Below are positions 21,301 through 43,226 of a stretch of 64,000 nucleotides of DNA, one piece after another. This DNA comes from Yoonia maritima. Its GTDB lineage: Bacteria > Pseudomonadota > Alphaproteobacteria > Rhodobacterales > Rhodobacteraceae. Positions within the stretch are counted from its first letter, which is position 1, and every line of letters starts with the position of its first letter. Location: assembly GCF_002933395.1 (NCBI RefSeq), contig NZ_PKFN01000010.1, positions 124,001 through 188,000 of the forward strand, in the 5' to 3' direction. The notes under the pieces were generated by a model. It searched no databases and was not told the DNA's origin. It saw only the letters and a program-made list of their open reading frames with translations. Made by a program: the position numbers and the translations under genes.

Positions 21301-21469
21301 CTTACGAACTCAGCGACTTTGGGTGCCATCTGCTAAGCCGCTGCGTCGCAGCGGAGCTGACCTTGATCACCCACCCGATTTCGGCTACCCAGCCGCAGGC
21401 TTATCGGCTGCGATTTAACCTTTCGCGGCCATCAGCTCTTAGAGGGGCGAGGCTCAGGGTGGAATGACA

Positions 21470-22228
21470 ATGGACGGCCTTCACACCGGCACAAAAGCTG
21501 AATTAGTTGGAAGCGATATCGCGCTAGCTGATCTTTGCTATGCCGTGGCCGGTAAATCCATTCTTTCTGACGTTTCCATTCAAACAAACGCTGCCCGTGT
21601 AGGTATTGTTGGTAGAAACGGATCAGGGAAGTCGACGCTTGCGCGCCTTATTGCAGGTTTGATTGCGCCGACTTCGGGAACAGCGCAGATCAATGGCAAA
21701 GACCTTTTCAAGAACCGCAAAGCGGCACTGACTGAAATCGGGATTTTGTTCCAAAATCCCGATCACCAGATCATCTTTCCCACGGTTGAAGAAGAAATCA
21801 GTTTCGGACTGCGCCAGCTAGGCCAATCCAAAGACACCGCCGCAACCAAGACCCAAGAAACGCTAACCAGTTTTGGTAAGGCACATTGGGCCGAGGCATA
21901 TATCAACACGCTATCGCAGGGTCAGAAACACTTGGTGTGCTTGATGGCAGTTGCGGCCATGGCCCCAAAAACGATCATTCTTGATGAACCGTTCACCGGG
22001 CTCGATATCCCGACAAAGGCACAGCTCAACCGCTATCTTTCGCAGTATCACGGTAGCCTGATCCACATCACACATGATCCTGCCGACCTTATCCAATACG
22101 ATTATGTGATTTGGCTAGAACAGGGCGCCGTTCAGCAAACTGGGCATCCCGATGACGTGCTGCCTGCCTATGTTGCACGCATGAATGAATTGGGGGGATC
22201 CGATGATATCTCTGACCTCTCCGATTAG
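21470..22228 (+). CDS. bioM: Biotin ECF transporter ATPase BioM
   Basis: ATPase of the energy-coupling-factor biotin importer BioMNY. About 252 residues from the ATG at 21470, which has GGTGGA 6 nt upstream; an ATG 6 nt earlier is possible. It has Walker A GRNGSGKST, Q-loop FQNPDHQIIFPTVEEEI typical of CbiO/ECF ATPases, Walker B TIILDEPF and the switch His in HITHD. The ABC signature reads LSQGQ instead of LSGGQ. It overlaps bioN by 26 nt and is followed by bioN and bioY without gaps. Confidence 0.92.
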   Translation: MDGLHTGTKAELVGSDIALADLCYAVAGKSILSDVSIQTNAARVGIVGRNGSGKSTLARLIAGLIAPTSGTAQINGKDLFKNRKAALTEIGILFQNPDHQIIFPTVEEEISFGLRQLGQSKDTAATKTQETLTSFGKAHWAEAYINTLSQGQKHLVCLMAVAAMAPKTIILDEPFTGLDIPTKAQLNRYLSQYHGSLIHITHDPADLIQYDYVIWLEQGAVQQTGHPDDVLPAYVARMNELGGSDDISDLSD

Positions 22229-22817
22229 GACCAAAGCCCACAGCTGGCCCGCTGGCGCAAAGCTGGCAACGCTATGCGTTTCGACTGTTGCGCTGTTTTA
22301 TGTTCAGAACGCCGCCATTCATGCCGCTATCTTCGCTGGCATCCTGACGCTCTATGCGCTGCCGGGAGGTGCGTTTTTTATGACAGGCCTCCGCGCCTTG
22401 CGTTTGCTGTGGCCATTCATTGTGGTGGTCGCGATCTGGCATCTTTGGACCGGCGAAGTCGCACTGGGCGCCGCTGTTATCCTACGGATGATGTCCGCAG
22501 TGGCGCTGGCAAATCTAGTGACGATGACAACGCTGTTGTCAGATATGATCGACGTTGTTCGCACAATTACACGGCCACTAGCCCGTTTCGGGTTACGGCC
22601 AAACATACTCGAATTAGCAATTGCATTGGTAATCCGGCTTACCCCGGTTCTTGTTGAAAAAGGATCGCTGCTGTCGCAATCATGGCGCGCGCGGTCTTGC
22701 CGGCCCTCGGGCTGGCGTATCATCTTACCTTTCACCGTACTCGCGCTGGATGACGCGGACCAAGTCGCAGAAGCCCTGCGCGCACGCGGTGGATTTGACA
22801 CAATGAAGGATACCTAA
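22203..22817 (+). CDS. bioN: Biotin ECF transporter transmembrane protein BioN
   Basis: The T component coupling BioM to BioY. About 204 residues from the ATG at 22203 (GGGGGGAT just upstream), with several membrane helices. The two Ala-Arg-Gly/Ser coupling motifs of T components are present: SQSWRARSCRP and AEALRARGGFD near the C-terminus. It overlaps the end of bioM and abuts bioY, consistent with one translation-coupled unit. Confidence 0.9.
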   Translation: MISLTSPIRTKAHSWPAGAKLATLCVSTVALFYVQNAAIHAAIFAGILTLYALPGGAFFMTGLRALRLLWPFIVVVAIWHLWTGEVALGAAVILRMMSAVALANLVTMTTLLSDMIDVVRTITRPLARFGLRPNILELAIALVIRLTPVLVEKGSLLSQSWRARSCRPSGWRIILPFTVLALDDADQVAEALRARGGFDTMKDT

Positions 22818-23372
22818 ATGGAAAAGAACGTAACCTTGATCGCCCTATTCGCGGGACTTATCGCGGCGCTAGGCATTATCCCTGCAATCACACTCGGGTT
22901 CGGCGTACCCATCACCGCACAAAGCCTTGGCGTCATGCTCTGCGGTACGATTTTGGGATCGAAACGCGGCGGTCTTGCGGTCTTGTTATTCTTGCTGGTT
23001 GTTGCCATCGGTGTCCCGCTGCTCTCTGGTGGCCGTGGCGGCTTGGGCGTATTTGCATCACCGTCCGCTGGCTTCTTGATTGGCTGGCCTGTTGCCGCAT
23101 TCGTCACTGGCCTTATCGTTGAAAAATGGAACGGTGCGCCTTTGATGATCATTGCTGGTATCGCTTCTGTCGTTGGCGGCGTCATCGTGATGTACGCATT
23201 CGGCATCGTCGGCATGTCTATCGCGCTCGACAAAACGCTGCTTGAATCCACTGGATTGGTCACTGCGTTTATTCCCGGCGATTTGCTGAAGGCAGGTATC
23301 GCAGGCATGTTAACCTCGGCACTAGCCAAAGCGCGCCCAGCAAGCGTTCTATCGCGTGCAGATGCCGTCTGA
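22818..23372 (+). CDS. bioY: Biotin transporter substrate-binding protein BioY
   Basis: S component that binds biotin in the inner membrane. The 184-residue product has six hydrophobic helices and the BioY motifs GVPITAQSLGVMLCGTILG, SGGRGGLGVFASPSAGFLIGW and AFIPGDLLKAGIAG. Length is normal. It starts directly after the bioN stop. The bioMNY set is complete, so high-affinity uptake is expected. Biotin synthesis genes are not in the window. Confidence 0.95.
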   Translation: MEKNVTLIALFAGLIAALGIIPAITLGFGVPITAQSLGVMLCGTILGSKRGGLAVLLFLLVVAIGVPLLSGGRGGLGVFASPSAGFLIGWPVAAFVTGLIVEKWNGAPLMIIAGIASVVGGVIVMYAFGIVGMSIALDKTLLESTGLVTAFIPGDLLKAGIAGMLTSALAKARPASVLSRADAV

Positions 23373-24042
23373 TCTAACTGATCTTCTACGCCAACGGCGA
23401 TCTATCCGGGCCTTTACCCAAGACCCGGTTGATCGTCACACGGTAGAGCGGCTGTGCACTGCCGCTCGCTGTGCACCAAGCGGTGCAAACCTTCAGCCCG
23501 GTCAGTTTCACGTGCTAACAGGTACGGCGCTGACCGAACTTAAGACGCGGCTTGGTCAGGCTGTCGCTGACAACACCCCAATCGATCTTGAATATTCATA
23601 CTTTCCCGATGTGATGCAGCCCGAGCTAAAAGATCGGCAACGCAAAGCGGGTTTTGCGCTTTACGAGGCGCTTGGAATTGCTCGCCGTGATGTCACCGGG
23701 CGACGTGATCAATTCGCCAAAAACTACTGCTTTTTCGATGCCCCTATTGGTATTGTGATCACCATCAATCGGGACATGGGCAAAGGCTGCTTTATGGATC
23801 TTGGTATGGCGATCATGGCGTTTTTACTGGCCGCCGAAGACGAAGGTCTAGGTGCGTCAGGGATTGGCGCATTGGCAAACTATGGGGCTATCGTGCATGA
23901 CCACCTCGAACTGCCGCAGAATGAAATGGTCGTTTGCGGAATCGCGCTTGGTGTTCCCGACATGGACGCAAATGTGAACCAGTTTCGCACTGAACGCCTG
24001 CCGCTTGACGCGTTTACGACCTTTCGCGGGTTCGACGACTAA
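23362..24042 (+). CDS. Nitroreductase-family flavoprotein
   Basis: FMN-dependent oxidoreductase of the nitroreductase fold, 226 residues from the ATG at 23362 (a GTG at 23356 is also in frame). RRSIRAFTQDPVDRHTVERL and ARCAPSGANLQPGQFHVL are the FMN-binding N-terminus, and GLGASGIGALANY plus CGIALGVPD the C-terminal motif. It overlaps the end of bioY by about 11 nt, so it is probably in the bioMNY operon; its 3' end overlaps the convergent thiolase by 4 nt. Physiological substrate unknown. Not BluB-like by eye. Confidence 0.87.
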   Translation: MPSDLTDLLRQRRSIRAFTQDPVDRHTVERLCTAARCAPSGANLQPGQFHVLTGTALTELKTRLGQAVADNTPIDLEYSYFPDVMQPELKDRQRKAGFALYEALGIARRDVTGRRDQFAKNYCFFDAPIGIVITINRDMGKGCFMDLGMAIMAFLLAAEDEGLGASGIGALANYGAIVHDHLELPQNEMVVCGIALGVPDMDANVNQFRTERLPLDAFTTFRGFDD

Positions 24043-25139
24043 TCCGAACGCAACACAACAGCCGAGCCCAAACCACCAGCTGACGCAATCGCGGCAACGC
24101 CCGTACCCTTCGTTCGCAGCAACTGATGGAACAAACGCGCAGCAAGTATTGCCCCAGAAGCCCCAATGGGGTGGCCCCAAGCAAGCGCACCTCCATGCCG
24201 ATTAACGACTTCTACAGGCAGGTTTGCGCCCTGCTGACAGGCGATTGCTTGAATGGCAAAAGCCTCCATAATCTCGGCGCTGATCAGATCATCAACCTTC
24301 ACCCCAGCCATGTCCAAGACCGCGTTGATTGCCTTGACCGGCGCGATACCGGGTAGCACGGGATCGTCGCCTAGGGTTTTACCGGCAACGAACTCGACAG
24401 TATCGATCCCATGATCGGCGATATATTTCTCAGACGCGAGCACAACAAACCCTGCCCCATCAGCCGCGACAGCCATGTTTGCGGCAGTGATACTACCAAC
24501 CACGACCGGGGCCTTGTCACACAGACGCGCGGAAAGGTTACGCGTAAATGCATCCCCGCCAATTCCCTCGACTGGCACGATTTCAGGGTGCACGCCGACC
24601 AGCGCCTTAGCATGGCTTTCGATTGCCCATGCGTCTTGTTCGGCCTTGCTGATCCCAAGTTTTTGGGCAAGCCTATCAGCGGCAAGGGCCATATCAGGAT
24701 CTCGGTCCGCCCACGGGGTAAAACACGCCTGATCGTAGGGCGCCGGATCACGACCATCCGCAAAGGTTTGGTACCGCAATGGTCGACGCGAATAGCTTTC
24801 GACACCTCCCGCAATCACAACGTGGTGCTGACCAGACCGGATCATCGCATCAGCCAAGACAAGGGCATCCAAACCGCCCGCGCATTGCCGATCAATTGAC
24901 AACCCCGCAACCCGGTCAGGCAATCCTGCATGCAAGGCAATAATACGCGCTGGGTTCCCGCCCGCGCCCAGCGCATTGGACACAACCAATTCGCCAATAT
25001 CTGCAGGCGAAATCGCGGCATCTCGAAGCAATTGTAAAAGAACCGGCTTAGCTATTTCTTCAATCGAAAGATGGGCCAACGCACCGTTGCGGGGGACCAC
25101 CGGACTTCGCCTTGCAGCGATCAGATAGGTCTTGGTCAT
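24039..25139 (-). CDS. Thiolase-family protein with altered catalytic motifs
   Basis: 366 residues of the thiolase fold. The nucleophile cysteine is present (DRQCAGGLDA) and so is the GHP histidine (ALAWGHPIGASGA). The usual NEAFA loop reads MEAFA, and the C-terminal CxGGG motif with the second catalytic cysteine reads ASAGGLG, so that cysteine is missing. Classical thiolases need it, so the reaction may differ, for example acyl transfer without normal Claisen chemistry. It overlaps the upstream ligase by 4 nt. The pair next to bioY recalls the B. subtilis yhfS-yhfT-yhfU operon. Confidence 0.85.
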   Translation of the reverse strand: MTKTYLIAARRSPVVPRNGALAHLSIEEIAKPVLLQLLRDAAISPADIGELVVSNALGAGGNPARIIALHAGLPDRVAGLSIDRQCAGGLDALVLADAMIRSGQHHVVIAGGVESYSRRPLRYQTFADGRDPAPYDQACFTPWADRDPDMALAADRLAQKLGISKAEQDAWAIESHAKALVGVHPEIVPVEGIGGDAFTRNLSARLCDKAPVVVGSITAANMAVAADGAGFVVLASEKYIADHGIDTVEFVAGKTLGDDPVLPGIAPVKAINAVLDMAGVKVDDLISAEIMEAFAIQAIACQQGANLPVEVVNRHGGALAWGHPIGASGAILAARLFHQLLRTKGTGVAAIASAGGLGSAVVLRSD

Positions 25140-26311
25140 CCGTCAGCCGCAACTATTTCACGCAACAACTGTAAGTCAGGCTTTCCCGCGGCAAGCATCG
25201 GGATCTTATCAACGATCCGTATGTCTTTGGGAACTGAATGCTGTCCAACCATCATCTTACAGTGCCTATGAACAATTGCGGAGGTCAGGCTTTCATCAAT
25301 AGATTGTACAAAACAAATCAAACGATTACCCCGTTTTTGGTCCGGCGTGGTAACGACTGCACATTGCTGCGCAGCGTCCAATTGCATAACGCAGCGTTCG
25401 ACCTCTTCAGGAAAAACATTTGTATCTGCAACCGTCACCATGCGGTTTTTGCGTCCGCTTAGAAACAAATAGCCGCTACCGTCCATATACCCCATCTCGC
25501 CAATGCTCAGATACGTGCCATCCCATTGAGTATCCGGATGATCACCGGCCTCATACCCGTCATATAGATACGGGCTTGCGACCCAGAGCTCTCCGGCTGA
25601 GGCATTATCAGTGGTAGCAATGCGCAGTTGAACCCCCGGATAAAGCCGCCCAACAGACCCCGGCGGCGTATTTTCATCTGACATAGTGATGAAACTGGTT
25701 TCGCTCGCGCCAAAGATTTCATGCACGTGGGCAGCGGGAAACAAACGGTGCAACGCGTCTTTCACCCGAGAGCTCAGCTTACCACCACCCGAAAAGATAT
25801 GCCGCACGTGCGGTAATGCGCTAATTTGCGCCAAAGCTGCGCCCTTTATCAGCAGTGTCAGTTGGGTTGGCGTTGCATAAAGGATCGAAACACCAAAGCT
25901 CTGGACTGCGCGCACCTGACGCTGCGGACCAAGGTTCGTCAGCGAACAAATATCAGCGCCTAGGCTCAATGCCTCTACCGTTGCATAAAGCGTTAACGAA
26001 TGCCCCAAAGCGCCCAACGTTGCATAGGTATCATCAGATGATATTGAAAATCGGTCAGATGCAATTGCAAAACTCTTGTTCCATGTATCCGGCTTGCGGC
26101 GGATCACCTTTGGCTGACCGCTTGATCCTGACGTTTCGCACATCAACCATTGCGGCCCAGCCGCGCCAGCGGCAATCGGTTCGCCAGCAGATTGGCTTGC
26201 CTTGATCGTCGCACCGCGGGTTAGGCAATCGACCAGCACATCAATGCCACGAACATCTGGTGTCAGGATTTCACTGAGGCTACTTAGCGTAAATTTCATT
26301 TCATTTTTCAT
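25136..26311 (-). CDS. Short AMP-binding acyl-CoA ligase-like protein
   Basis: 391 residues of the ANL (acyl-CoA synthetase) superfamily. The P-loop TSGSSGQPKVIRR appears near residue 60 rather than about 180, so the normal N-terminal subdomain is largely absent. FGASE (A5), YLSIGEMGYMD (A7, with Glu where Asp is usual), SGRKNRMVTVADTNVFPEEVE (A8) and AAGKPDLQLLR with the catalytic lysine (A10) are present. It probably activates an organic acid with ATP; CoA transfer is likely but unproven. It is translation-coupled to the thiolase. Resembles YhfT of B. subtilis in context only. Confidence 0.8.
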   Translation of the reverse strand: MKNEMKFTLSSLSEILTPDVRGIDVLVDCLTRGATIKASQSAGEPIAAGAAGPQWLMCETSGSSGQPKVIRRKPDTWNKSFAIASDRFSISSDDTYATLGALGHSLTLYATVEALSLGADICSLTNLGPQRQVRAVQSFGVSILYATPTQLTLLIKGAALAQISALPHVRHIFSGGGKLSSRVKDALHRLFPAAHVHEIFGASETSFITMSDENTPPGSVGRLYPGVQLRIATTDNASAGELWVASPYLYDGYEAGDHPDTQWDGTYLSIGEMGYMDGSGYLFLSGRKNRMVTVADTNVFPEEVERCVMQLDAAQQCAVVTTPDQKRGNRLICFVQSIDESLTSAIVHRHCKMMVGQHSVPKDIRIVDKIPMLAAGKPDLQLLREIVAADG

Positions 26312-26605: not shown

Positions 26606-27424
26606 ATGGATGAAAAGAATGTAGATTGGCGGGATCTCCACCTCTTTCTCGCTGTTGCGCGCGAAGGTGGGCTGTCACCCGCCGCCAAAGTGTCAGGCAG
26701 CAGCCCCGCGACGCTGGGTCGTCGTATGCTTGCGCTTGAACGGACAATGGGGCGCGACCTGTTCGTACGGCATGATCGCGGCTATGAACTCACGGTAGAC
26801 GCCCGCGATCTTTTGATCAAGTTGACGGATATTGAATCTCTCATCCGTCAGGCTACTGTACCGATCGACAAGCAGCCTATGCCGGTCGTTAAGGTATCAG
26901 CCGGGTCGTGGACAACGCTTCACTTACTAAAGCATATTGACCAGATTACAGGCACACCAGCCGATATCAAACTGCGGTTCATCGCTGCCGAAAACATCCT
27001 AGATATCCCACATCGCGAGGTCGTCATCGGATTTAGAAACGGCCGACCAACCAGTCCCAATCTTGCTGGGCGCAAGATGTCACGTGTTGAATTTGCTCCG
27101 TACGCAACGCCTGATGCGCCCAAGCAATGGATCAAAGTGATCGCTGACACCCCTTCCGCACTGTGGGTTGATCGTATGATTGGTAACGACGCCATTCATC
27201 AGGTGAACGCACCACGCAATAGTCTCGACCTTGCGCTGCTTGGCAAAGGAATCGCGCTTTTGCCGACATTCATCGGCGATACAGAATCGACATTAGATCG
27301 GGTTGGCGAAACCATTGCAGAACTCGCACATGATCAATGGATTGTAACGCACCATGAGGACAGACACCTTCCCGAGGTGCGGCGCGCCATTGACCGGATG
27401 TATCACGCGCTCGAACGGTTGTAG
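26606..27424 (+). CDS. LysR-family transcriptional regulator
   Basis: 272 residues: an N-terminal winged helix (WRDLHLFLAVAREGGLSPAAKV, SPATLGRRMLALERTMGRDLFVRH) followed by a LysR-type effector domain that is somewhat short. It lies divergent from the ligase-thiolase operon, the usual arrangement for a LysR protein and its target, so it may control that operon. The inducer is unknown. Its end is 7 nt from the convergent DUF6473-like gene. Confidence 0.88.
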   Translation: MDEKNVDWRDLHLFLAVAREGGLSPAAKVSGSSPATLGRRMLALERTMGRDLFVRHDRGYELTVDARDLLIKLTDIESLIRQATVPIDKQPMPVVKVSAGSWTTLHLLKHIDQITGTPADIKLRFIAAENILDIPHREVVIGFRNGRPTSPNLAGRKMSRVEFAPYATPDAPKQWIKVIADTPSALWVDRMIGNDAIHQVNAPRNSLDLALLGKGIALLPTFIGDTESTLDRVGETIAELAHDQWIVTHHEDRHLPEVRRAIDRMYHALERL

Positions 27425-27431
27425 GACTGTA

Positions 27432-28280
27432 TTACGAAGCATGATAAAGCTGCACCCGGATCGTTTCTATCAGTCTTGCGCTTGCCTCTTGATGGCATTG
27501 GACGCCCAGCATCTCAGTCGCCATCGCAGCCTGTGAAGCCGGATAAAACATTCCCGTCGTCCCTGCTGCTAACGCCGCTGGTGTTGGGTTCGCAACAACG
27601 ATATCCAGCACCAATGAACGCAACTCATCAACCATAGACGCGGTTATAAACAGCGGATCGGCCTGCAACTGCGACGGACGCAATGTCCAGTTCTGGTCGT
27701 CGAACTGTTCATCAGAAAACCAAAGTAGGATCACGCGCCCCCCGATTTGACCCAACATGTTTCTCATACGTGCAAGCCACGCTTCTCGGAGTTCGTTTAC
27801 GACAGTTTCGAACCGATCTGGCGACTTTCCGTGAAGGGCACCCAACATATGGCGCGTAAAAGCGAATTCTGAAAAATCCACATCATGGTAAATCGCCTGT
27901 AACACCGTTGATGCCTTAAGGAACCGATCATTTCGACGCGGATGAACCGAATAGAAGCGATTGGATAAATTATTCGCCCCCATGACCTGAACGACCGTCA
28001 AATCCGCATCCCGGCAGATTTCCATCACTGACGTATCGTTAACAAATGCATCGATACCACCGTTTACGCACCCAAAGTTTACGCAGGTTTGCCGCATCGC
28101 CCTTTCGACTAGCACTGGAAACGGCTTTTCAATGAATTTGCCATAAGTCTCTGTACCGCCGACAAACGCCATATACGGCCGATCAAGCCGCCTTCGCGGG
28201 CCGCGAAATAATACTTTTGAACTGCCGTATCGACATGGCGCATAGCCAAGCTCTTCGGCCTCGATCACCTCTTGTTTCAT
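27432..28280 (-). CDS. DUF6473-like uncharacterised protein
   Basis: 282 residues, no signal peptide. LGYAPCRYGSSKVLFRGPRR, AFVGGTETYGKF, NFGCVNGGIDAF and NRFYSVHPRRNDRFLKAS are strongly conserved in a Rhodobacterales family I remember as DUF6473 (the number is from memory). The GGTETYG and GCVNGG blocks suggest an SGNH-hydrolase-like fold, but this is a guess. Function unknown. It lies between the LysR gene and hbdA, on the minus strand. Confidence 0.65.
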   Translation of the reverse strand: MKQEVIEAEELGYAPCRYGSSKVLFRGPRRRLDRPYMAFVGGTETYGKFIEKPFPVLVERAMRQTCVNFGCVNGGIDAFVNDTSVMEICRDADLTVVQVMGANNLSNRFYSVHPRRNDRFLKASTVLQAIYHDVDFSEFAFTRHMLGALHGKSPDRFETVVNELREAWLARMRNMLGQIGGRVILLWFSDEQFDDQNWTLRPSQLQADPLFITASMVDELRSLVLDIVVANPTPAALAAGTTGMFYPASQAAMATEMLGVQCHQEASARLIETIRVQLYHAS

Positions 28281-42023: not shown

Positions 42024-43226
42024 ATGACCCAAGCATATATCTGCGACTACATCCGCACGCCTATCGGACGCTTTGGTGGGGCGCTTGCCCCAGTTCGTGC
42101 CGACGACCTTGGTGCAGTCCCGCTGCGCGCACTCATGGCCCGCCACGACATAGACTGGGCCGAGGTTGACGAGGTCTACTTTGGCTGTGCCAACCAAGCG
42201 GGCGAAGACAACCGCAACGTCGCACGCATGTCCGCGCTATTGGCAGGTCTGCCCGAAACCGTACCGGGTTCAACTGTGAACCGCCTGTGCGGGTCCGGCA
42301 TGGACGCGCTGATCTTGGCCGCTCGCAGCATCAAAGCAGGCGAGGCTGACATGATCATCGCAGGCGGCGTCGAAAGCATGAGCCGCGCACCATTTGTGAT
42401 GCCCAAGGCAACCAGCGCCTATTCCCGCGCGAATGAAATCCACGATACCACCATCGGCTGGCGCTTCGTAAACCCGTTGATGAAATCGCAATATGGCGTC
42501 GATTCGATGCCCGAAACTGCAGAAAACGTGGCCGAAGATTTCAACGTGTCGCGCGAAGACCAAGACGCATTCGCGCTGCGGTCCCAGCATAAAGCAGGCG
42601 TCGCGATGGAAAACGGCACGCTGGCACAAGAAATCACACCAGTGACCATCCCACAGCGCAAGGGTGAAGCGGTTGTTGTCGACACAGACGAACACCCACG
42701 TCCACAAACCACAGCCGAAGCATTGGCCAAACTGCGCGCACCATTCCGTGAGGGCGGGTCTGTGACCGCAGGTAACGCGTCCGGCGTAAATGATGGGGCA
42801 GCCGCGCTGATCATCGCGAACGAGGCCGCGATCAAACGCCACGGGCTGACACCAATCGCACGCGTCATGGGCGGCGCAAGCGCTGGTGTTGCGCCGCGGA
42901 TCATGGGCTTTGGCCCTGCACCTGCATCGCAAAAACTGATGGCACGACTTGGGCTAACCGCTGATGCATTCGACGTGATCGAGCTGAATGAAGCCTTCGC
43001 ATCACAGGGTCTCGCCACGCTGCGCGCGCTTGGCATTGCCGATGATGATGCACGAGTAAACCCAAACGGCGGTGCCATCGCACTGGGTCACCCATTGGGC
43101 ATGTCCGGCGCGCGGATCGCAGGTACTGCGGCACTACAAATGCAACGGACCGGTGGCAAATATGCATTGGCGACGATGTGCATCGGCGTCGGGCAAGGTA
43201 TCGCCGTGGCACTGGAAAGAGTCTAA
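42024..43226 (+). CDS. pcaF: 3-oxoadipyl-CoA thiolase
   Basis: Cleaves 3-oxoadipyl-CoA to succinyl-CoA and acetyl-CoA, the last step of aromatic degradation by the beta-ketoadipate route. 400 residues with intact catalytic motifs: NRLCGSGMDAL (nucleophile Cys), NEAFASQGLATLR, ALGHPLGMSGAR (His) and TMCIGVGQGIA (second Cys). This contrasts with the altered thiolase at 24 kb. A terminator follows. Upstream pca genes (pcaGHBCD) are not in the window. Confidence 0.94.
   Translation: MTQAYICDYIRTPIGRFGGALAPVRADDLGAVPLRALMARHDIDWAEVDEVYFGCANQAGEDNRNVARMSALLAGLPETVPGSTVNRLCGSGMDALILAARSIKAGEADMIIAGGVESMSRAPFVMPKATSAYSRANEIHDTTIGWRFVNPLMKSQYGVDSMPETAENVAEDFNVSREDQDAFALRSQHKAGVAMENGTLAQEITPVTIPQRKGEAVVVDTDEHPRPQTTAEALAKLRAPFREGGSVTAGNASGVNDGAAALIIANEAAIKRHGLTPIARVMGGASAGVAPRIMGFGPAPASQKLMARLGLTADAFDVIELNEAFASQGLATLRALGIADDDARVNPNGGAIALGHPLGMSGARIAGTAALQMQRTGGKYALATMCIGVGQGIAVALERV

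Follow-up and report, generated by a model that had tools for sequence, protein, structure and literature searches.

Thiolase-like proteins without the second catalytic cysteine, paired with an acyl-CoA ligase beside biotin importers, in Yoonia maritima and other bacteria

Which product do a thiolase-like and a ligase-like protein make from the compound imported by BioY, the component of the biotin transporter beside which they are encoded? In the parts of the literature consulted, the BirA-regulated pair near BioY has so far been just two names, acetyltransferase-like and ligase-like; the loss, in several phyla, of a residue that thiolase chemistry needs, together with the location of the pair beside biotin import in bacteria lacking bioB, turns this annotation into a testable question. 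We address it with a locus of Yoonia maritima, contained in a window (the whole stretch of DNA that was analysed) of 64,000 nucleotides. Similar pairs beside biotin importers in several phyla suggest an unstudied rescue route for damaged biotin. If such repair is real, it would change the prediction of biotin auxotrophy and of vitamin exchange from genomes, and nature would here offer an example of how a reversible thiolase can change into an enzyme that works in one direction or only transfers acyl groups.

The features of the locus are as follows, with residues numbered in the window protein unless stated.

24039-25139, minus strand: thiolase-family protein of 366 residues without the CxG cysteine and the NEAF asparagine (open reading frame, profiles, alignment)
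24882-24884, minus strand: codon of Cys86, the retained nucleophile (DRQC), Cys in 27/27
24267-24269, minus strand: codon of Met291, replacing the NEAF asparagine (Asn316 in Zoogloea numbering; alignment)
24171-24173, minus strand: codon of His323, the retained GHP histidine (alignment)
24084-24086, minus strand: codon of Ala352, replacing the CxG cysteine (Cys378 in Zoogloea numbering; alignment)
25136-26311, minus strand: AMP-forming acyl-CoA ligase of 391 residues, short at its N terminus (PRK07638 is the best NCBIfam model, below cut-off)
22818-23372, plus strand: bioY, biotin-binding S component (PF02632, E 2.2e-32; aligns to L. lactis BioY 4dve)
22185-22817, plus strand: bioN, ECF transmembrane T component (PF02361, E 4.3e-8)
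21464-22228, plus strand: bioM, ECF ATPase (TIGR04520, E 6e-46, below cut-off)
23356-24042, plus strand: nitroreductase-family flavoenzyme between bioY and the thiolase gene (PF00881, E 3.4e-27)

The thiolase open reading frame is intact on the minus strand; the plus-strand frame of the same span is interrupted by stops. Pfam finds Thiolase_N and Thiolase_C in the product, and TIGR01930 (acetyl-CoA C-acyltransferase) scores 267.1 bits, above its cut-off of 240.55. The motifs read DRQC(86)AGGLD, EIM(291)EAFA, WGH(323)P and AIA(352)SAGGLG. The original prediction held that the nucleophile in DRQC and the GHP histidine are kept while the second catalytic cysteine and the NEAFA asparagine are missing, with MEAFA in place of NEAFA and ASAGGLG at the C-terminal motif, and it named the intact pcaF thiolase of the same window as a contrast. 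It named no strand. All of its sequence reading is borne out on the minus strand and by an alignment with pcaF (42024-43226), whose four motifs are standard (RLCGSG, NEAFA, GHPLG, CIGVGQG), and with two other paralogues from the same genome, which sets Ala352 against the second cysteine and Met291 against the asparagine.

A thiolase match with an E value of 1e-60 or better is present in 28 of the 149 genomes of the order, the Y. maritima genome included. Three of these (L033-L035) carry a second type, which keeps NEAFA and has Gly at the cysteine position; the close group consists of 28 MEAFA sequences, from 25 order genomes and three plasmid records (L073, L075, L076), of which 27 are readable (P0001 and 26 relatives), L032 being dropped as its contig ends before the motifs. 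Cys86, His323, Met291 and Ala352 are each present in 27/27, as is Pro263 at the VMG position, where the methionine of the acyl pocket is Met in 17/17 Cys-bearing rows and Leu, Pro or Phe in 71/71 other family rows; 57 of these 71 keep the NEAF asparagine. Against three relatives, most differences in the thiolase fall at third codon positions, and NG86 dN/dS is 0.09-0.17 at a saturated dS of 2.0-2.7. Judged from these comparisons, the thiolase is under purifying selection and, since both losses are also constant in 27/27, not decaying. Because the acid/base cysteine and the oxyanion-hole asparagine are both lost, and fixed across the group, normal thiolysis is probably not to be expected of the window protein, in agreement with the original prediction.

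In the alignment of the 27 sequences, the search for a replacement acid/base gave no clear substitute. Three candidates were rejected: Ser353 is Ser in just 3/27, Asp149 (DPDM) is Asp or Glu in 20/27, and Cys301, the sole other mostly conserved cysteine (23/27), lies on the helix after MEAFA, ten residues down. Asp91, five residues past the nucleophile, is Asp in 26/27; its position holds Glu or Asp in 62/71 other family rows and Asn in 14/17 Cys-bearing rows, and pcaF, with its CxG cysteine intact, likewise has Asp there. Asp91 is kept as a candidate replacement acid.

An AlphaFold2 model of the thiolase (mean pLDDT 96.7) has standard thiolases, such as that of Zoogloea and BktB, as its nearest solved folds (TM 0.92-0.94), and a PDB search with A5 gave no chain above 397 bits, the best one being a thiolase that keeps the CxG cysteine. 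With the Zoogloea biosynthetic thiolase (1dlu, 7ldw and others) the window protein shares the fold, the nucleophile and the GHP histidine, but it is only 30-31% identical, lacks Cys378 and Asn316, and is shorter (366 vs ~390 residues). The TIGR01930 score, the nucleophile and the GHP histidine thus place it in the thiolase family, without the full residue set of a standard thiolase. SCP2-type thiolases carry a replacement cysteine in an HDCF motif; the window protein has MEAFA and no cysteine at that position. OleA combines Cys-His-Asn with a glutamate from the partner subunit. The KAS III model PF08545 reaches 22.5 bits over 37 residues, against a cut-off of 24. Mycobacterial TLP1 also has a thiolase fold without the CxG cysteine, but has lost the nucleophile and GHP, and has YSCF, GGL and NGG motifs and an extra C-terminal domain (PMC3406046, in the parts consulted); the window thiolase contains none of these three motifs. 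With an adjacent ligase and BioY, no CxG cysteine and a position on the same side of the tree described below, it belongs with the BioY-linked Cys-less thiolases.

The original prediction had also pointed to yhfS, which proved a good lead: PRK06690 and PRK07638, the models for YhfS and YhfT of B. subtilis and S. aureus, are the best specific NCBIfam models for the window thiolase and ligase. Like the window pair, YhfS/YhfT are a thiolase-like and a CoA-ligase-like protein, of the BirA/BioY regulon, and in related Staphylococcus and Bacillus loci, to which this comparison was confined, the CxG cysteine is likewise missing. The window pair is, however, far under the equivalog cut-offs (245.9 vs 498 bits for the thiolase, 200.1 vs 518 for the ligase); even a BioY-linked Bacillota thiolase (L079), at 449.9 bits, stays below the thiolase cut-off. 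As six other thiolase places in the same genome score 217.5-249.1 bits with PRK06690, against 244.7 for the window protein in that comparison, this model fails to separate the window thiolase from its paralogues, and residues, synteny and the tree were used. Unlike YhfS/YhfT, the window thiolase lacks the asparagine, the ligase is N-terminally short with Glu in its TGD motif, and the genes are convergent to bioMNY. Another likeness is found in S. meliloti, where bioB(BioY)-SMc00965-SMc00966, encoding BioY, an AMP-binding protein and a thiolase, change together (PMC12445080, in the parts consulted). In an S. meliloti record a thiolase beside bioMNY has Gly at the CxG cysteine, but differs from the window protein in keeping NEAFA and in its adjoining thioesterase and MDR genes. 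In the open-licence literature searched, as far as the accessible parts go, no description of the missing cysteine or of the function of the pair was found (PMC6391492, PMC7235819, PMC11089781, PMC12445080, PMC3398298, PMC7478625, PMC3406046, PMC12642757, PMC4554459); within these parts, the pair is known by name from Bacillota, and they do not describe that catalytic residues are lost or how widely this occurs.

The ligase gene lies upstream of the thiolase gene in the same operon and overlaps its start (ATGA), and bioM, bioN, bioY and the nitroreductase gene run convergent to the pair. The ligase is ~90 N-terminal residues shorter than full-length relatives, and the motifs that we take to be the P-loop, GR and A10-lysine motifs are all present. 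The aspartate of the TGD motif, presumably ribose-binding, is Glu in 8/8 MEAFA-type ligases aligned, whereas the remaining 14 aligned ligases, including one of a Rhodobacterales genome with the second type, keep it. A structure model of fair quality (pLDDT 87.3) places the ligase near ANL ligases with 16-23% identity, a likeness that is silent on the substrate. Blastococcus and Nocardia loci, too, contain short ligases.

The pair is linked within the order, ligase and thiolase being neighbours in 24/24 MEAFA-type regions. Across 26 regions including plasmid loci (L066, whose thiolase runs off the contig, is left out), a ligase is found within 5 kb in 26/26, BioY in 20/26, a nitroreductase homologue in 9/26 and an MDR reductase in 5/26; L045 and L046 have the nitroreductase near the pair but no BioY within 5 kb, and in L060 bioMNY lies slightly further from the pair. 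The nitroreductase is a possible fourth member of the module. In Paracoccus aminovorans, bioM, bioN, bioY, ligase and thiolase form a single collinear run.

Relatives outside the order were sought in a species-genome collection with A1, a profile built on the second type; 594 stretches matched a pattern and 582 encode relatives; the multi-phylum set described here is the best 80 of these 582 and a biased sample. Within it, BioY-ligase-thiolase groups occur in Pseudomonadota including rhizobia, in Bacillota (YhfT/YhfS-like) including Staphylococcus, in Actinomycetota, in a cyanobacterium and in a Marinimicrobia MAG. The CxG cysteine is absent from 63 of the 79 readable loci among the best 80, and 54 of these 63 have BioY within 5 kb; it is present in 16, of which two, both Trichococcus, have BioY (Fisher p 6e-8, for loci that are related to one another). 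The division into canonical and other loci was drawn after the cysteine had been seen, and therefore this two-way table of cysteine against BioY carries the evidence. Ligase and thiolase frames overlap in at most 42/52 species-genome loci of this set with an adjacent ligase, each frame being counted from its earliest possible start. In an unrooted tree of 69 hand-chosen rows, with the catalytic columns kept in, a single branch (SH-aLRT 90) separates the Cys-less rows from the others. Cys-less thiolases retain Cys89 and His348 (Zoogloea numbering), and the asparagine position has undergone at least three changes (to T, V and M), all in the part of the tree joining Actinomycetota and the MEAFA clade. 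A scan of viral contigs gave no thiolase relative.

The CxG cysteine is retained in the two BioY-linked Trichococcus thiolases (L121 6992-8176, L137 6992-8176), whose loci also contain the most complete set of elongation-type genes, a FabK-like one included; these two are a possible intermediate for comparison.

Among the sampled genomes of the order, the thiolase occurs only where no bioB was found. With profile A1, three more second-type genomes are recovered, set off from lower matches by a clear drop in score (617 to 367 bits), so that 31/149 order genomes have the thiolase; bioB is found in 32/149, and none has both where 6.66 would be expected (hypergeometric p 2e-4, for genera that are not independent; p 5e-4 with the earlier count of 28 thiolase genomes). 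At genus level, with the thiolase in 14/72, bioB in 16/72 and two shared, the effect is not significant (p 0.34). BioY is found in 140/149 order genomes, including all 31 with the thiolase. The Y. maritima genome has no bioB or bioD match and a single bioF match, under cut-off. Among the genomes of the multi-phylum loci, bioB was sought in 49 of 63, found in 31/49 and not found in 18/49, so these loci accompany biotin synthesis in some genomes and not in others, and auxotrophy is no general condition. In genomes that lack bioB, they cannot be used to make biotin from pimelate by the bioB route.

In the window, no BioR box by the consensus is found near bioM or the ligase gene, and 44 upstream stretches gave one match with one mismatch (L056); bioM and the ligase gene have no exact palindrome in common (exact 6-base arms only). 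A palindrome like the BirA box, in the form that we assumed for the scan, stands before the first gene in 15/24 Bacillota loci at 13/16 or better, but was not found in two of the three staphylococcal loci; loci without it include L098 and L101. A 2002 comparative-genomics study reportedly covered the BirA regulon. S. aureus BirA with biotin represses the yhfS-yhfT promoter in an E. coli reporter assay (PMC6391492, in the sections consulted), so that this pair would be on at biotin shortage. In S. meliloti, as noted above, bioY and its two partner genes change in step (PMC12445080, likewise in part), and the bioMNY genes of P. denitrificans and A. tumefaciens have no BioR site upstream, according to the consulted portions of PMC4554459.

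Partner genes were surveyed around 66 non-canonical and 14 canonical loci, again the best 80 of 582, with Pfam and NCBIfam run on examples only. Genes for a ketoreductase, dehydratase, reductase or thioesterase accompany some of the Bacillota and rhizobial copies. In this set, two dehydratase genes (FAS1_DH and MaoC types) and a FabG-like reductase gene follow the thiolase in 6/66 non-canonical loci, four of them Cys-less (L079, L080, L084, L093) and two Cys-bearing (L121, L137). Both dehydratase genes without the reductase are found in five more of the 66, including the three Staphylococcus/Mammaliicoccus loci, and a FabK-like enoyl reductase in 3/66 (L084, L121, L137), of which only L084 is Cys-less; two of the FabK-like proteins were tested and match TIGR03151 (E 4e-86 and 9e-119) without reaching its equivalog cut-off. 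Genes for a hot-dog thioesterase and an MDR reductase occur together in 7/66, their two frames overlapping in L089; the MDR genes score as quinone reductases, for which we infer an enoyl-reductase role. The 14 canonical loci of the same best 80 have FabG-like genes in 12, MaoC in nine and thioesterases in six, and no FabK, MDR or BioY gene near them. In a Rhizobiaceae MAG (L095, 3170-9893), thioesterase, bioM-like, bioN-like, bioY, ligase, thiolase and short-chain reductase genes form one run, with the MDR gene convergent. Profile searches of the window cluster recognised no elongation genes, just the nitroreductase nearby.

From the linkage and the residues observed we infer a substrate and a reaction, least securely for the branch without the asparagine. 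The acyl-transfer half of the thiolase reaction needs Cys and His, and the Claisen half needs a base (Cys378) and an Asn/His hole (PMC3406046, in the parts consulted). Since the base that deprotonates acetyl-CoA is gone, ordinary reversible Claisen condensation and thiolysis would be off. Our tentative reading, plausible but short of probable, is that the pair serves a CoA-dependent salvage of biotin vitamers in which the thiolase keeps acyl transfer and not reversible thiolysis, perhaps with a two-carbon lengthening of side-chain-shortened biotin. BioMNY would import a biotin-related acid, and BioY, the biotin repression and the auxotrophy would make a side-chain-shortened biotin the likeliest one; the ligase would convert it to a CoA thioester, and the thiolase would load the acyl group onto Cys86, a first half-reaction for which Cys and His suffice. 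Our best guess for the second half-reaction would be a KAS-like step in which a malonyl thioester loses its carboxyl group on condensation and so adds two carbons to the shortened side chain. In KAS chemistry the enolate is formed by decarboxylation; most of the family has lost the base alone, which would suit an enolate arising in this way and not by deprotonation. To complete the path from bisnorbiotin to biotin, the keto group would then be reduced, water removed, the enoyl bond reduced and the thioester released. Given the ligase and the partial sets of reductase, dehydratase and thioesterase genes, two-carbon lengthening of an imported acid would be the simplest sum. For the window's own protein, condensation is doubtful because Met for Asn removes part of the oxyanion hole, and in the MEAFA branch, where the asparagine is lost and the ligase changed, acyl transfer may be all that remains. 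That the BioY-linked modules in general are a widespread vitamin repair, turning bisnorbiotin into biotin by CoA activation and one malonyl-dependent C2 round on a one-way KAS-like thiolase, is possible but rather doubtful. Against the proposed lengthening stand the absence of elongation genes from most clusters of the best 80 of 582, the window's included, the frequency with which canonical, Cys-bearing thiolases also have FabG-like and MaoC neighbours, and the cysteine kept in two of the three FabK loci (Trichococcus).

The same residues could instead serve acyl transfer throughout, the ligase making biotinyl-CoA or another vitamer-CoA and Cys86 passing the acyl group to a thiol, an amine or water with no C-C bond formed. 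Retention of Cys and His with loss of the acid/base cysteine, the at least three replacements of Asn (by T, V and M) confined to a single region of the tree, and a window cluster without recognised elongation genes would all fit; we consider this rather unlikely, as the asparagine is retained in 57/71 other family rows and several loci have reductase and dehydratase genes that plain transfer would leave superfluous. These genes, FabG-, MaoC- and FabK-like, together with the biotin repression in S. aureus and the BirA-like boxes in many Bacillota loci, might alternatively indicate a malonyl-CoA-independent fatty-acid synthesis by reverse beta-oxidation, used when acetyl-CoA carboxylase fails at biotin shortage, with BioY merely co-regulated. 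Such a route would depend on the acid/base cysteine, which is missing from most family members, and the BioY link persists in proteobacterial and actinobacterial loci (the BirA-box scan covered Bacillota loci), so we regard it as improbable.

The loss of the thiolysis residue also weighs against a catabolic beta-oxidation of the biotin side chain, which would call for gene classes that are present here: ligase, hydratase-like and thiolase-family. As the S. aureus pair is repressed by biotin (PMC6391492, in the parts consulted) and the reductases recognised are FabK-like and MDR proteins, acyl-CoA dehydrogenase being outside the models searched, this proposal has a very slim chance. We hold it to be just as improbable that the pair offers biotin synthesis a second supply of pimeloyl-CoA: bioB is present in 31/49 multi-phylum genomes with such a locus, but in none of the 31 order genomes with the thiolase, and the Y. 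maritima genome lacks a bioD match and has bioF below cut-off only.

The importer component itself differs between linked and unlinked loci. Linked BioY proteins, including that at 22818-23372 (plus strand), have Arg at position 73 (GGRGG). The solved BioY of L. lactis carries Asn there, and Ser or Thr prevails among 20 unlinked BioY of the order, hand-picked among genomes without this thiolase; Arg is found in 73/74 linked vs 2/20 of these unlinked proteins. Linked BioY also reads FIPGD, most unlinked BioY of the order having I, L or A for the Pro. Arg73 was rejected as a marker of a different imported vitamer: both unlinked exceptions have no ligase or thiolase match in 16 kb, and it therefore marks a BioY lineage and not the ligase-thiolase module. 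On the other side of the pair, a LysR-type regulator gene (26606-27424, plus strand) is divergent from the ligase gene at ~294 bp, and is not beside the ligase in the nearest relative, L043. It is followed by a gene for a DUF6473 protein (27432-28280, minus strand; PF20078, E 6e-118), which adjoins the ligase gene in L043 too.
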